Source of the DNA: Magnetococcales bacterium
Lineage (GTDB): Bacteria; Pseudomonadota; Magnetococcia; Magnetococcales; UBA8363
Direction: 5' to 3'
Assembly: GCA_002753515.1 (NCBI GenBank)
Contig: PEAK01000029.1
Span: forward strand, 1-47,237
Length of the DNA stretch: 47,237 nucleotides
This document shows, one piece after another, positions 12,029-17,382 of this stretch; the stretch's first letter is position 1, and the number at the start of each line of letters is the position of its first letter. The notes below the pieces were generated by a model. It was not told the DNA's origin, made no database searches, and saw only the letters and a list, made by a program, of their open reading frames with translations. The position numbers and the translations under genes were made by a program.

Positions 12029-12931
12029 ATGACTGATACCACCCATCCGCAACGGTATGATGCGACACTGAAGTCTATTTTCCAGACTCCACCGCAACAT
12101 CTGCTTCAGATGCTCATCGGCCAAGAGGCTTGTGAACTTTTGACCGTCGAATTTCCATCGGTGCGTAAGCGTTTGCCCGATTTGCTGGTTCGGCTGAAGG
12201 ATGGAAGCATCTGCCATCTCGAACTGCAGAGCGGTTCCGACATAGACATGCATTGGCGGATGCTGGAGTATTATGCGCTGATCCGGCGACTGTATCCCGC
12301 CGCATCTCTCACACAACTGGTGCTGTTCGTGGGCGAAGGTAATCCGGTCTTTCCAGTTGCGATTGAAGAAGGACCGTTGACTTTCCGTTATACTGTGCGA
12401 AACATCCGGGAAGTTGACTGTCGACTATTGCTGACCAGCGCATGCGTGGAAGAAAATATCCTGGCTATACTGTGCCGCATGCCAGACGAGCGAGGCACCA
12501 TCCGGGAAATACTAACCCGCATTGCGAGCCTGGAGCCAAAGGCCAGGGCCGATGCGTTGGAACAACTGGTGATCCTGTCCGGATTAAGAAAACTGGGACC
12601 GGTCATTCGTGAGGAGGTTAAAATAATGGCTATTACCTTTAACGTGATGGAAAATGAGTTCCTTCGGGACTTGTTTATGCAGGGACTGCAGGAGGGCGAA
12701 AAAAAAGGCGAAAAAAAAGGCGAAAAAAAAGGCGAAAAAAAGGGCGAAAAAAAGGGCGAAAAAAAAGGCGAAGCTAGGATGCTAACACGCATGCTGCAAC
12801 GCCGCTTCGGCACCGTACCTGACTGGGCCAGCGAAAAAATAGCCAAAGCAAAATCAACGACCCTGGAGGAATGGAGCCTGCGCTTTATAGATGCCCAATC
12901 ATTGGACGACGTTTTTTCGGACTCCAAGTGA
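12029..12931 (+). CDS. Rpn-family PD-(D/E)XK nuclease with DUF4351-like C-terminus
   Basis: A 300-residue protein of the Rpn/YhgA-like group (often labelled putative transposase). The nuclease core at the N-terminus begins RYDATLKSIF, and the PD-(D/E)XK residues are Asp51 (RLPDLLV), Glu65 and Gln67 (CHLELQS). The C-terminal 50 residues match the DUF4351 tail (RMLQRRFGTVPDW, then TLEEWSLRFIDAQSLDDVF). Between them lies a perfect GEKK repeat, residues 223-246, encoded by A-rich 12-bp units. Rpn proteins are DNA nucleases, recently tied to phage defence and recombination. The gene is monocistronic, transcribed toward the minus-strand TatD gene. A decayed copy of the same tail occurs at 41717-41812. 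Confidence 0.85.
   Translation: MTDTTHPQRYDATLKSIFQTPPQHLLQMLIGQEACELLTVEFPSVRKRLPDLLVRLKDGSICHLELQSGSDIDMHWRMLEYYALIRRLYPAASLTQLVLFVGEGNPVFPVAIEEGPLTFRYTVRNIREVDCRLLLTSACVEENILAILCRMPDERGTIREILTRIASLEPKARADALEQLVILSGLRKLGPVIREEVKIMAITFNVMENEFLRDLFMQGLQEGEKKGEKKGEKKGEKKGEKKGEKKGEARMLTRMLQRRFGTVPDWASEKIAKAKSTTLEEWSLRFIDAQSLDDVFSDSK
12695..12766 (+). repeat. Six tandem 12-bp units GGCGAAAAAAAA in the Rpn gene
   Basis: Six units of GGC-GAA-AAA-AAA or GGC-GAA-AAA-AAG follow without interruption, then half a unit. Four units contain runs of eight A residues. In-frame unit loss or gain changes the linker length by four residues, while slippage within an A8 run would shift the frame and remove the C-terminal domain. 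Confidence 0.97.
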
Positions 12932-12978: not shown

Positions 12979-14358
12979 TTACCCCAGGGCGTTCAAGGTG
13001 CGCTTTCTAAACCGGACCCCCAACTCGTCTTGGGCCATGGTTTGGCAGCGAGCAATGTCCACCCCTGCCAAACCTTCGATGGCCGTCACCTGGACATCGG
13101 GAACATGGCGCTTGACCAAGCGACAAAATTCCTTGACCGCCTCGTAGGAGCCTGCCAATGACGGCAGGCAATGCTGCTCGTAGAGCGCCGCATCCTGGGC
13201 ATTCAAAGAGACCGAGACCGCATCCACCACCCCGGCCAATTCTGGCGTAACGTCCCGGCCATGCACCAGGTTGGCCAAGCCGTCGGTATTGACCCGCACC
13301 CGGGGACAACCGTGCCTCTTGGCCCAACGAGCGACCTCCAGCAAGACCGGCAAGCGTAAGGTCGGTTCCCCATATCCGCAAAAAACCAGTTCGTCATAGG
13401 AAGCCATATCGCCCAGAGCGGCAATGATTTCGGCAGCTTTGGGATTGCGTTGCAGGGATAAATCATAGTGGTGAACCACCGGTTTATCCCACTTGGGGCA
13501 AAACGCGCATCGTAACGTACACCCACGGGTCAGATTGACGTACAACCCACGGCCAATGGCATAGACCAAGGTCTCTTTTGGCACCGATTGGGCCTGCAAC
13601 GCAAAAAGTTGGCGATAGTTGCGGGTGGTGATTTCCGCCAACTCCTCCAGGGTCACCCCCTTGACCTTCGCCAGCATTCGGGCCACTTCCACCACATAGG
13701 CTGGTTCATTGCGTTTGCCACGGTACGGAATCGGTGCCAAATACGGGGAATCGGTCTCCAATAACAACCGATCCAACGGCACCGAGGACGCCACCTGCCG
13801 CAGCGCTTCAGCCGTACGAAAGGTAACGACACCCGAAAAGCTGATGTAAAAACCAATATCGAGCGCCCAATGCGCCATTTCCCTGGAGCCGGTAAAACAA
13901 TGAATCACTCCCCCACATTCCTCTCCCCGTTCCTCTTCCAAGACGCGTCTGGTATCCGTTTCAGCCTCACGGGTATGCACCACCAACGGCAAATGCCGCG
14001 CCACCGCGACCCGCACATGTTCGCGAAACACCCGCTCCTGGTCCCCTTTGTCCGAATGATTGTAATGAAAATCAAAACCGGTCTCACCAACAGCAACCAT
14101 TTTTGGATGATTCAAAGCATTAAACAACTCTTGCGCCAAATTGGCTCCCGCCTCCCGGGCATAATGGGGATGAATGCCCGCTGTAGTAACCACGTGATCG
14201 TAGGGTTCAATCAGTTTGAGAATCGCCTCGGTTTCAGTCAACCGGGTACCGATGGTGTTTAAATAGCTGACGCCCGCCTGTCGGGCGCGCTCGATGATAG
14301 TCTCCAAGTCTCCGGTAAAATCTGGAAAATTTAAATGGCAATGACTGTCTGCAAGCAT
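12979..14358 (-). CDS. TatD-family hydrolase fused to a TatD-linked radical SAM domain
   Basis: A 459-residue two-domain protein. The first 255 residues are a TatD metal-dependent DNase/hydrolase: DSHCHLNF at residues 4-11 (two metal-binding histidines), VGETGFDF, VVHTREAE, IHCFTGS and LETDSPYLAP are all present. The rest is a radical SAM domain with the cluster motif CTLRCAFC (CxxxCxxC) after LYVNLTRG, and the GYGEPTLR segment that follows in the known TatD-linked radical SAM family. In other bacteria the two are usually separate neighbouring genes. Here they are one polypeptide. It is the last gene of the long fab-tmk-holB operon, starting directly after the PSP1 stop codon. The reaction of the radical SAM part is unknown. 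Confidence 0.9.
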   Translation of the reverse strand: MLADSHCHLNFPDFTGDLETIIERARQAGVSYLNTIGTRLTETEAILKLIEPYDHVVTTAGIHPHYAREAGANLAQELFNALNHPKMVAVGETGFDFHYNHSDKGDQERVFREHVRVAVARHLPLVVHTREAETDTRRVLEEERGEECGGVIHCFTGSREMAHWALDIGFYISFSGVVTFRTAEALRQVASSVPLDRLLLETDSPYLAPIPYRGKRNEPAYVVEVARMLAKVKGVTLEELAEITTRNYRQLFALQAQSVPKETLVYAIGRGLYVNLTRGCTLRCAFCPKWDKPVVHHYDLSLQRNPKAAEIIAALGDMASYDELVFCGYGEPTLRLPVLLEVARWAKRHGCPRVRVNTDGLANLVHGRDVTPELAGVVDAVSVSLNAQDAALYEQHCLPSLAGSYEAVKEFCRLVKRHVPDVQVTAIEGLAGVDIARCQTMAQDELGVRFRKRTLNALG

Positions 14359-14361
14359 GAC

Positions 14362-15771
14362 TCACTCCGATGTGGCAACCGGTGGTTCGGGAGACTGGTT
14401 TACCACAGACGATGTTTTTTTCTTTTTGCGGCGACGTTTTTTGCGTACGGTCGTACCCCCTGGAGCGTTTTTTTCCTCAGCGACCCCTTCCTCTCGATTA
14501 TCCGGCTCCGCACTTGGTCCAACCTCCCCATCGCCAGCTGCTACCGGGATTGCGTTCGACCGATCTGCCGCCACCCCGGCCTGATCACCCGACATATCCG
14601 ATTTTTTGCGATTTTTTCTCTTCCGGGAGCGCCGCTTCTTTTCCCCACTTGCCGATGTGTCCTCCGCCTGCAAACCGGCCCCACCCTGAGCAGTCGCAAC
14701 GCCCGATGTCACCATATCCGGTTTATGACTTGTTTTTTCTTCAATGTGTTGGGCAGTCTCCGGTCCCGCCACGTCCGGTTTTTCCGCCAACAGAGAGGAT
14801 GCCGGACAATATTCCCGTGTTCCATCGGCCAATTGACAGACAACACTCCCCTGCAAAGGATGGACGGTACGAATCTGTACTGCACGACCATCCCGTGTCC
14901 AATAATGCCCTTTCAGTGTCGGCAACGATTCCCGAAGGTGGGTATAGGTATCATTTTCGTAGGCCAGACAACACATCAGCCGACCGCAAACACCGGAAAT
15001 ACCCTCTGGATTCAATGATAAATCCTGATTTTTGGCCATGCGGACCGAAACAGGATGAAATTTTTTTAAAAATTGTGCGCAACAAAAATCTTTGCCGCAA
15101 TTGCCCACCCCACCCAGCATTTGGGTTTCATCACGCACTCCGATGTGGCGCATTTCTATGCGAACATTGAGTTTTTCCGTCAGTTGCTTGACCAATTCAC
15201 GAAAATCGACCCGAGCCTCGGAGGTAAACGTAAAGATGGCCTTGGTCCCGCTTGGTTGATAGACCACCCGGGACAACTTCATTGGCAATCCCTCCTGGCG
15301 AATCAACTCCCGACCCAATATCTTGGCTTGAAGTTCTTTTTCACGCAATTCATTGGCCTTGATCTCTTCTTCCGGACCCAATTTTCGGACAATCCGGGTT
15401 ATCCGTCCTGGATAGAGTGACCTGGAATCATTTTTGCTAGTGTACACACTGCCAGAAACGAAAATCACCCGACCTGTCGTTTCCCCATCCCGGGTCTGCA
15501 CCAGCAATGGATCCCCGGGGATCAAATCTGGAAAGTTGGCCACCACGCGGTACACCATGCACGATTCCAGCAAGCGAATCCCGACAATCCGTTTTTCCCC
15601 CTTCGCCGAACGGGGATACCCCTTTTGTCCCGCAAAAGGTTCCTTGTCCTGCTGGGTTAGGCGACTCCCCGCCGCCTCCATCTCGTCCTCCGCCCAGTCC
15701 AGGTGAGGTGTCGCGCCAAGCTCAGGCTCAGCGGGCGTTTTTTCTTCCGCTATCGCCGGATCGTCGTTCAC
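14362..15771 (-). CDS. PSP1/RicT-domain protein with long basic tail
   Basis: A 469-residue protein. After a variable, acidic N-terminus of about 75 residues comes the PSP1 (YaaT/RicT) domain: RVIFVSGSVYTSKN onward, GTKAIFTFTSEARVDFRELVKQL, and the cysteine-rich core GNCGKDFCCAQFLKKF plus CGRLMCCLAYE, whose cysteines bind an Fe-S cluster in the RicAFT complex. The last 170 residues are low complexity, rich in Lys/Arg, with two basic clusters. That suggests RNA binding. The start is GTG at 15771, overlapping the holB stop (GTGA). An upstream ATG at 16023 lies within holB and is rejected. In many bacteria psp1 follows holB, so the context supports the call. Confidence 0.88.
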   Translation of the reverse strand: MNDDPAIAEEKTPAEPELGATPHLDWAEDEMEAAGSRLTQQDKEPFAGQKGYPRSAKGEKRIVGIRLLESCMVYRVVANFPDLIPGDPLLVQTRDGETTGRVIFVSGSVYTSKNDSRSLYPGRITRIVRKLGPEEEIKANELREKELQAKILGRELIRQEGLPMKLSRVVYQPSGTKAIFTFTSEARVDFRELVKQLTEKLNVRIEMRHIGVRDETQMLGGVGNCGKDFCCAQFLKKFHPVSVRMAKNQDLSLNPEGISGVCGRLMCCLAYENDTYTHLRESLPTLKGHYWTRDGRAVQIRTVHPLQGSVVCQLADGTREYCPASSLLAEKPDVAGPETAQHIEEKTSHKPDMVTSGVATAQGGAGLQAEDTSASGEKKRRSRKRKNRKKSDMSGDQAGVAADRSNAIPVAAGDGEVGPSAEPDNREEGVAEEKNAPGGTTVRKKRRRKKKKTSSVVNQSPEPPVATSE

Positions 15772-16730
15772 AGGCTGGCTCCCGAGGTACGTATCATTTT
15801 GATGAATATCCCCTCCAACAGGTAACGCTTGTTGACATTGAACGTCTCCCCCCGGGCAAATATCTCCCTGGCAAAAGCCTCCACCGCAAGCCAGGCCCGT
15901 ACCCCTCCAGCCCCACTGTCGGAGCGGACACTTTCCCGGACCCGCTCCACCAACCAGCGGCCAACCACTGTCCTCGCCAGGGCAAAGCGCTCCTCCTTGG
16001 ACCAATGTTCCGCCACATCGCACAACTTGGTCAGCCCCCCATGCGTCATAAGCTCTCGCAATTCGTCATGCAACCGGCTGCATTCGTCCAATTGCCCACC
16101 CGCGACAAAGTTCAGCCCAAAACCCACATTACCCTCCGAATAATGCCACACCCCATCCCATTCGGTATCCTTGAGCGATGTCTTATCCGCAAGGATACGA
16201 AAGAAATCATCCTTGGAAAGGGCGTTAAAGGGGTAGATGACGCAGCGGGAGCGGATCGTTGCCAGCAGCATCCCCGGACGCGACGAAACCAAAATGAGGA
16301 TGGATTGCGCAGGGGGTTCTTCCAACGTTTTGAGCAAGGCGTTGGCTGCTGCCGGGTTCATTGACGCCGCATCATCAATTATGGCTACTTTCCACGGTGA
16401 CTCCATAGGAGTCAAAGATAAAAAACGCGCCAACTCCCGTATTTGATCCACGGCAATGCGTGTTTTTTTTTCCGCCATTTCCACCACGATCAGGTCAGGG
16501 TGACAGCGCATGGCCACTTTGTGACAGGAGGGACAACGTAGACATCCCGTAACCGTGGCGCTGTCCTTTGGGGTATCCTGACATAACAAAGCCTGTGCCA
16601 AAGCACGGGCCACCGTTGCCTTACCCACCCCTTCCGGGCCGGTGAACAGATAGGCATGAGACAGGTTACCCGCCTGCAAGCCGGCCTGCAACCCCCGCAC
16701 GATTTCCCGATGACCAACGATCTCATTCAA
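15768..16730 (-). CDS. holB: DNA polymerase III delta' subunit HolB
   Basis: A 320-residue clamp-loader subunit. Residues 1-170 form the AAA+ module: YLFTGPEGVGKATVARAL holds a Walker A with lysine retained but Ala in place of Ser/Thr, as expected for the non-hydrolysing delta' subunit. The zinc module CLRCPSCHKV with a preceding Cys, and the delta' sequence ANALLKTLEEPPAQSILILVSSRPGMLLATIRSRC are diagnostic. The C-terminal collar region follows. Start is TTG at 16730, overlapping the tmk stop by eight bases. The tmk-holB-psp1-tatD order is widely conserved. Confidence 0.95.
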   Translation of the reverse strand: MNEIVGHREIVRGLQAGLQAGNLSHAYLFTGPEGVGKATVARALAQALLCQDTPKDSATVTGCLRCPSCHKVAMRCHPDLIVVEMAEKKTRIAVDQIRELARFLSLTPMESPWKVAIIDDAASMNPAAANALLKTLEEPPAQSILILVSSRPGMLLATIRSRCVIYPFNALSKDDFFRILADKTSLKDTEWDGVWHYSEGNVGFGLNFVAGGQLDECSRLHDELRELMTHGGLTKLCDVAEHWSKEERFALARTVVGRWLVERVRESVRSDSGAGGVRAWLAVEAFAREIFARGETFNVNKRYLLEGIFIKMIRTSGASL

Positions 16731-17382
16731 GGTGTGGAAAAACTCCCGTGACCTCCCGCCAGATCGCCATCGCTACTGCCTCCCGGGAAGAATGGCCGTC
16801 AATGATGCGAATGCGATCCAGGTTTCTGCCCGCCAATTCTCTAAAGCCGTCCTGCACCCGTTGGTGAAATGACACATCCTCGGCCTCAAAGCGATTCTCA
16901 ACCGACCTGTTACGCAACCGATCCCCCGAACGCTGCAAACCATACTCCACATCAAGTGCCACAAACAGGGTCAAATCAGGGACCAGTTCCCCCACACTCC
17001 AACGATGCAACGACTCCAAAAACGCCACATCCATCCCACGGCCACACCCCTGATAAGCCCAAGTACTATCAAAAAAACGATCACACAGCACCCACCTGCC
17101 CCGGTCCAGCGCCGGCTGGATCACTTGGCGGACATGTTCAATCCTGGCAGCCGTCATCAACAATAATTCGGTTTTGGCTGTAATACCCTCCGGTGGTCCA
17201 GAAACCAACAACGCCCGGAGTTGTTCGGCAATCGGACACCCCCCCGGCTCACGGGTCACGACCACATCCACACCACACCCGGCCAGACGCTCGGCCAAAA
17301 GCATTATCTGGGTTGATTTTCCGGCCCCCTCGCCCCCTTCCAAGGTCAAGAATGCACCCGAGCCGGGTCGCAACTCAGCCAT
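16723..17382 (-). CDS. tmk: Thymidylate kinase
   Basis: A 219-residue kinase converting dTMP to dTDP. The P-loop is EGGEGAGKST at residues 15-24, the substrate motif DRFFDSTWAYQGCGRG follows at about residue 100, and the C-terminal region has the usual helix. The LID segment (SGDRLRNRSVENRFE) carries several arginines. Start ATG at 17382. The gene overlaps holB by eight bases and follows mltG after 11 bases, inside the long minus-strand operon. Confidence 0.97.
   Translation of the reverse strand: MAELRPGSGAFLTLEGGEGAGKSTQIMLLAERLAGCGVDVVVTREPGGCPIAEQLRALLVSGPPEGITAKTELLLMTAARIEHVRQVIQPALDRGRWVLCDRFFDSTWAYQGCGRGMDVAFLESLHRWSVGELVPDLTLFVALDVEYGLQRSGDRLRNRSVENRFEAEDVSFHQRVQDGFRELAGRNLDRIRIIDGHSSREAVAMAIWREVTGVFPHLE

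Follow-up and report, generated by a model that had tools for sequence, protein, structure and literature searches.

The window analysed here, i.e. the whole stretch of 47,237 nucleotides from a Magnetococcales bacterium (contig PEAK01000029.1), contains on its minus strand a single open frame of 459 amino acids (positions 12,979–14,358), which begins with ATG at 14,358, ends with its stop at 12,979 and has no internal stops. Among the NCBIfam profiles, the TatD model TIGR00010 matches residues 2–253 (296 bits, cut-off 206), and TIGR04038 (tatD_link_rSAM) matches residues 263–455 over model positions 1–191 of 192 (250 bits, cut-off 129.7). The Pfam models concur, with TatD_DNase (PF01026) and Radical_SAM (PF04055; 49.4 bits on the radical SAM half, cut-off 29.5) at the same positions. 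Both domains are whole, and about 10 residues join a YcfH-type TatD nuclease to a radical SAM domain. The original prediction, that TatD and its linked radical SAM enzyme form one polypeptide with a junction near residue 255, agrees with these results: both families are identified over their cut-offs, the gap between the domains lies at about residues 254–262, and the full name of TIGR04038, 'TatD family nuclease-associated radical SAM protein', itself records that the two families are linked. A stop codon or frameshift at the junction, which would speak against a fusion, is absent from the window, and the frames of relatives are open too.

Table 1 Features of the fused gene and of the genes upstream of it (window coordinates).
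Feature	Position	Strand	Evidence
TatD domain, YcfH-type HxH metal-dependent nuclease, residues 1–254	13597..14358	(-)	TIGR00010 296 bits; PF01026; 44% identity to YcfH 1yix
HxH metal-binding motif, H6 and H8	14335..14343	(-)	in 74/74 fused rows with letters there
Linker, about residues 255–262	13573..13596	(-)	lower model confidence, pLDDT 75 for residues 251–260
Radical SAM domain, minimal core, residues 263–459	12982..13572	(-)	TIGR04038 250 bits; PF04055
CX3CX2C cluster motif, C280 C284 C287	13498..13521	(-)	cysteines in 96/96 aligned rows
GxGEP motif, residues 328–332, directly after invariant C327	13363..13377	(-)	alignment of 96 rows
ricT/yaaT (PSP1), directly upstream of the fused gene; maximal ORF, true start inside	14362..16023	(-)	NF041131 230 bits
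holB, DNA polymerase III delta' subunit	15768..16730	(-)	TIGR00678 201 bits
tmk, dTMP kinase	16723..17382	(-)	TIGR00041 158 bits

The fused gene begins 4 bases past the end of ricT, with holB and tmk farther upstream on the same strand; given this spacing and the shared orientation, it very likely closes an operon as its last gene. Genes still further upstream look, by their sequences, like mltG and fabF. Among the named loci, fused genes of many other bacteria often come after tmk, holB, ricT and metG. Positions 12,029–12,931 of the window encode a DUF4351 protein with in-frame GEKK repeats, made of near-identical 12-base units at about 12,690–12,770, a likely slippage site.

The TIGR04038 family was found over its cut-off in 42 of the 61 near-kin genomes (7 of 8 in the genus, 34 of 40 among other members of the order and 1 of 13 among other members of the phylum), and 41 of these 42 genomes have open frames of 450–689 amino acids. 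The remaining genome, G007, of the same genus as the window, has a frame of only 156 amino acids: at L205:697–2047, an 80-nucleotide deletion in the radical SAM part of the fused gene removes CX3CX2C and shifts the frame, which is either a genuine loss or an assembly error. Throughout the loci read, the two domains share one frame, and among the 98 fused frames in all loci fetched by then (duplicates included), the gap between the domain matches is 10–16 residues in 77 and up to 30 residues in the rest. A sequencing or assembly artefact finds no support in the window and has a single broken congener, G007, to its credit; against the identical open fusion across tens of genomes, it is scarcely conceivable.

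Additional N-terminal partners were considered and rejected. A three-way MetG-TatD-radical SAM fusion in G094 and G132 (frames of 851 and 968 amino acids) failed on the reading frame, MetG lying in a different one, and the surplus is an upstream open frame in GC-rich DNA. No extra upstream domain was recognisable by eye in the long frames of G590, G627 and G674, and the upstream stretches of L046 and L088, also inspected by eye, resemble a spurious frame.

Phyla were sampled outside the Firmicutes and archaea, the Desulfobacterota-, Planctomycetota-, Nitrospinota- and Elusimicrobiota-type phyla being labelled after the named locus at the centre of each sample; in these counts, the length of the frame serves as the sign of fusion, and the order of the domains was verified in the fetched loci only. 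The family matches 20 of 118 genomes of the Desulfobacterota-type phylum, 19 of them over the cut-off, all with frames of at least 442 amino acids (the twentieth is a fragment), and 28 of 149 genomes of the Planctomycetota-type phylum, where the 27 that pass the cut-off all have frames of at least 456 amino acids. The Nitrospinota-type phylum yields 36 matching genomes out of 40 (frames of 458–638 amino acids), a further group 2 out of 2, and the control genome of Methanosarcina acetivorans also has the family over the cut-off. Separate radical SAM frames of 204–229 amino acids adjoin TatD in 4 of 5 genomes of the Elusimicrobiota-type phylum. Across the window's phylum, the family occurs in 45 of 398 genomes; the three beyond the 42 near-kin genomes belong to one genus and have frames of 200–240 amino acids. 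The phylogenetic spread of the fusion includes the window's order and the Desulfobacterota-, Planctomycetota- and Nitrospinota-type phyla.

Among the best 80 of at least 576 named loci (some of which are short, the contig ending there), 32 are fused, 1 is adjacent and 47 are standalone, and the radical SAM gene has no linked TatD in 46 of the 80; in one standalone locus, L058, a TatD-type gene lies at a distance of two genes. The titles of the standalone loci are gammaproteobacterial or unplaced Proteobacteria. TatD without the TIGR04038 gene is found in most sampled genomes of the Pseudomonadota- and Desulfobacterota-type phyla.

To our knowledge, TatD has as yet no settled physiological role; it has also been described as a D-aminoacyl-tRNA deacylase, an activity for which our literature search retrieved only unrelated proteomics work. 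Compared with E. coli YcfH (1yix), the TatD half shows 44% identity and a VIA Z of 40.3, with an rmsd of 1.6 over 256 residues (the VIA-align rows span residues 1–258, i.e. exclude the radical half). All six metal and catalytic positions are kept in the fused rows, H6 and H8 in every row with letters there and E92, H128, H153 and D203 in 75 of 75. Judged from these sequence features, the TatD half is in all probability an active nuclease of the YcfH kind (3'-5' exonuclease/AP endonuclease). In the window's genome, the fused gene is the sole TatD match at E = 1 × 10−40, and in 8 of the 9 fused genomes reached by locus, no TatD besides the fused one is found at E = 1 × 10−20. According to one study (PMC10085689), the HxH motif defines Group II TatD, E. 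coli YcfH acts as a 3'-exonuclease on ssDNA and as an AP endonuclease on dsDNA, and loss of all three TatD paralogues makes E. coli sensitive to H2O2; another study (PMC4176340) gives ssDNA and RNA as the substrates preferred by E. coli TatD.

In the radical SAM half, every one of the 96 aligned rows has C327, G328, G330, E331 and the three cysteines of the cluster motif, and 90 of the 96 have P332. The GxGEP motif is one that we take, from what is known of the family, to bind SAM; together with CX3CX2C, it suggests that this half would bind a [4Fe-4S] cluster and SAM and make a 5'-deoxyadenosyl radical. Beyond the cluster motif, cysteines are conserved at C327 (96/96 rows), C397 (92/96) and C438 (85/96), and these could be catalytic or ligate something. 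In the model, the radical SAM domain is a small core to which no accessory domain is attached. Once TatD and related hydrolases are set aside, the top match of a fold search is TYW1 (6djt, E = 1.3 × 10−6), with NifB, PFL-activating enzyme and viperin close behind; a profile of 29 sequences searched against the PDB matches the radical SAM domain protein 5wgg, RlmN, TYW1 and MoaA at E = 0.0009–0.007, RlmN and TYW1 being among the best at 0.001–0.003. These matches are weak and unspecific, NifB, PFL-activating enzyme, viperin, MoaA and a peptide maturase scoring similarly or higher, and they amount to a lead towards RNA. Neither the TYW1 nor the RlmN family model in NCBIfam matches the window at E = 0.001. 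The statement of the original prediction that this half has no known reaction still holds; TIGR04038 was not mentioned anywhere in the literature searched, nor, judging by the titles listed, did we find work on a TatD-radical SAM fusion. One genome, G588 (L211:164–1861), has a tandem pair of radical SAM genes, each coding for about 280 amino acids; both fall below the TIGR04038 cut-off, and they are possibly a paired variant.

Alignment A1 comprised 12 of the loci then available. Alignment A2 and the radical SAM tree have 96 rows (75 fused, from which near-identical, masked and truncated ones had been removed, 17 of the 47 named standalone and 4 adjacent), and the 45 unfused TatD rows were taken solely from the top of the score list. 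A screen for TatD positions shared by at least 85% of the 75 fused rows but by less than 40% of the 45 unfused rows returns none, and the same test on the radical half returns one position, G376; a dedicated interface, sought through such fusion-specific residues, was rejected on these results. In the tree of the 75 fused and 45 unfused TatD rows, tailed and tailless proteins intermingle (at least six changes, of which the starred branches force just one). In the radical SAM tree, the standalone rows adjoin the window's order; a free quick tree has three state changes, and a tree forced to keep the 17 standalone rows in one group performs no worse (p-AU = 0.518). A single split from a fused ancestor fits the constrained tree, which is unrooted. 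A structural model built from 96 sequences has a mean pLDDT of 96.1 and two confident domains; the modelled arrangement of the domains relative to each other is not confident, and since the overall pTM is 0.67, no TatD/radical SAM interface can be claimed (prediction from the single sequence gave a pLDDT of 35.6 and is unusable). The earlier contention that the fusion argues for a common substrate is not upheld by these observations, namely, the number of unlinked loci, the absence of fusion-specific TatD residues and the intermingled TatD tree.

Regulatory and neighbourhood signals accompany the standalone genes. With up to one mismatch allowed, FNR/Anr-like palindromes of the form TTGAY-N4-RTCAA lie upstream of the standalone gene in 16 of 47 loci compared to 18 of 293 other genes in the same loci (p = 5.5 × 10−7). 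This degenerate pattern was adopted once the strict one had been tried; the strict FNR consensus gives 9 of 47 compared to 11 of 293 (p = 0.00045). The loci with boxes are partly interrelated, such that the independent cases are, by our estimate, nearer eight or nine, and L075 is the only Shewanella locus among the 16. The palindromes are located about 90–165 bases ahead of the start of the radical SAM domain, e.g. in L057, L063, L038, L076 and L080. An mnmL-type gene comes next downstream in 8 of the 47 standalone loci, joined by ubiU and ubiV in 6 of these, and mnmL, ubiU and ubiV are found downstream in none of the 33 fused or adjacent loci. Loci of this type are L044 (6007–9426), L071 (6010–9655), L043, L046, L047, L050, L070 and L080; in L044 and L071, the names come from NCBIfam (TIGR01212 'tRNA modification radical SAM protein MnmL/YtqA', UbiU and UbiV), and the TIGR04038-mnmL-ubiU-ubiV set is a possible anaerobic operon. 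Nothing joining MnmL, tRNA and radical SAM was found in the literature searched. Downstream in L057 are hemN and a gene for an Fnr-type regulator. The family and the anaerobic ribonucleotide reductase NrdD tend to occur together in the Planctomycetota-type sample (15 of 27 genomes compared to 12 of 122, both families over their cut-offs; p = 7 × 10−7, kinship ignored). The FNR-like boxes, the mnmL-ubiUV neighbours and the NrdD co-occurrence suggest use at low oxygen.

The reading that we prefer, with a probability of roughly 0.5, is that of two autonomous enzymes on one chain, a housekeeping YcfH-type TatD and a TIGR04038 tail that is oxygen-independent and perhaps modifies RNA. The genome's housekeeping TatD would carry the radical SAM enzyme as a C-terminal tail, and both halves would be co-produced from the tmk-holB-ricT-tatD operon as independent catalysts rather than as obligate partners in one reaction; under low oxygen, the radical half would work as an oxygen-independent enzyme. 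Autonomy is indicated by the separability of the radical half, the lack of residues specific to fusion in TatD and the mixing of fused and unfused TatD. However, that many phyla have kept the fusion suggests some benefit beyond co-expression, and the low-oxygen component draws on FNR and mnmL-ubiUV evidence that comes from standalone rather than fused genes, in counts that ignore kinship. Tentatively, the substrate of the radical half may be RNA, probably tRNA or rRNA, which the tail would modify while TatD trims or removes 3' ends, although the fold and profile matches on this side have little specificity. A fuller scenario, which we consider rather unlikely in its entirety, would make TIGR04038 an oxygen-independent RNA-modifying radical enzyme whose fusion to the housekeeping TatD dates back to an ancestor shared by several phyla; in Gammaproteobacteria, it would have separated on a single occasion and been placed under FNR/Anr control, in certain lineages next to MnmL and UbiU/UbiV.

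An alternative closer to the original prediction is that the radical half alters or detaches a DNA or RNA lesion and the TatD half then acts on the result, either by hydrolysing it or by cleaning up the 3' end, e.g. in the repair of oxidative damage. Such a sequence of reactions is consistent with the wide distribution of the fusion, with the short linker in most frames and with the separate adjoining genes of the Elusimicrobiota-type genomes, as well as with the exonuclease and AP endonuclease activities of YcfH and the H2O2 sensitivity of the triple paralogue loss in E. coli, as given in PMC10085689. Nevertheless, more than half of the named loci (46 of 80) keep the radical half unlinked from TatD, TatD has no residues specific to the fusion, the overall pTM offers no trustworthy interface, and the FNR-like boxes indicate anaerobic rather than oxidative conditions, so that we rate this alternative as improbable on balance, albeit with a real share of the probability.

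Less probable still, the radical half could act on a protein in the manner of the activases of glycyl radical enzymes, its target being perhaps the TatD half or else an Fe-S protein, for example RicT. The small core devoid of accessory domains, the PFL-activating enzyme among the fold and profile matches, the position of ricT directly upstream and the NrdD co-occurrence in one phylum sample are compatible with this, but a constant partner is missing: ricT and metG stand beside fused or adjacent genes, and no neighbour is common to the standalone ones. We give similarly little credence to a neutral origin, in which a radical SAM gene formerly beside tatD was joined to it by read-through, with no functional consequence. 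Adjacent genes do occur, and one gammaproteobacterial split is compatible with the data; however, the junction has been kept open over many phyla, and both active sites are intact in the fused proteins. If the fuller TIGR04038 scenario outlined above is true, anaerobic growth would be tied to a novel RNA modification with a tethered 3'-end nuclease. In tractable genera such as Shewanella, the standalone genes make it possible to look for the reaction with no nuclease attached, and the FNR-like boxes and mnmL-ubiUV neighbours in other Gammaproteobacteria suggest a starting point; anaerobic RNA modification is the first hypothesis to pursue there.

With respect to known systems, the window's TatD half matches QatD, the TatD protein of the Qat anti-phage system, at 96.8 and 86.6 bits, far below the NCBIfam cut-off of 230, so membership was rejected; Qat genes were absent from the neighbour genes examined around the fused gene. 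TYW1 (4-demethylwyosine synthase) is the first radical SAM fold match of the window, with other radical SAM enzymes nearly equal, and the conserved SLNA...Y..C segment of TIGR04038 presumably resembles that of TYW1. TIGR04100 (rSAM_pair_X) is the second-best model for the radical half and matches at full length, but at 165.9 bits compared to a cut-off of 262, and the window was not assigned to it; a Monoglobus member scores above the cut-offs of both TIGR04038 and TIGR04100. The phage and plasmid records that match the radical half comprise two phage-labelled fragments that carry no annotation and one plasmid of Monoglobus, in which a TIGR04100-type gene follows a gene for a histidine-kinase-like ATPase (L242:5015–6600). 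From TIGR04038 itself, with the whole model covered by the window and the TatD association in the family name, no difference was found, and the window protein is an ordinary representative of a family whose name already records that association; in the standalone gammaproteobacterial form of TIGR04038, the association with TatD is not constant. With YcfH and the TIGR00010 Group II (HxH) enzymes, the TatD half has the fold and all metal and catalytic positions in common, whereas YcfH lacks a tail and the window protein carries a radical SAM tail of 200 residues.
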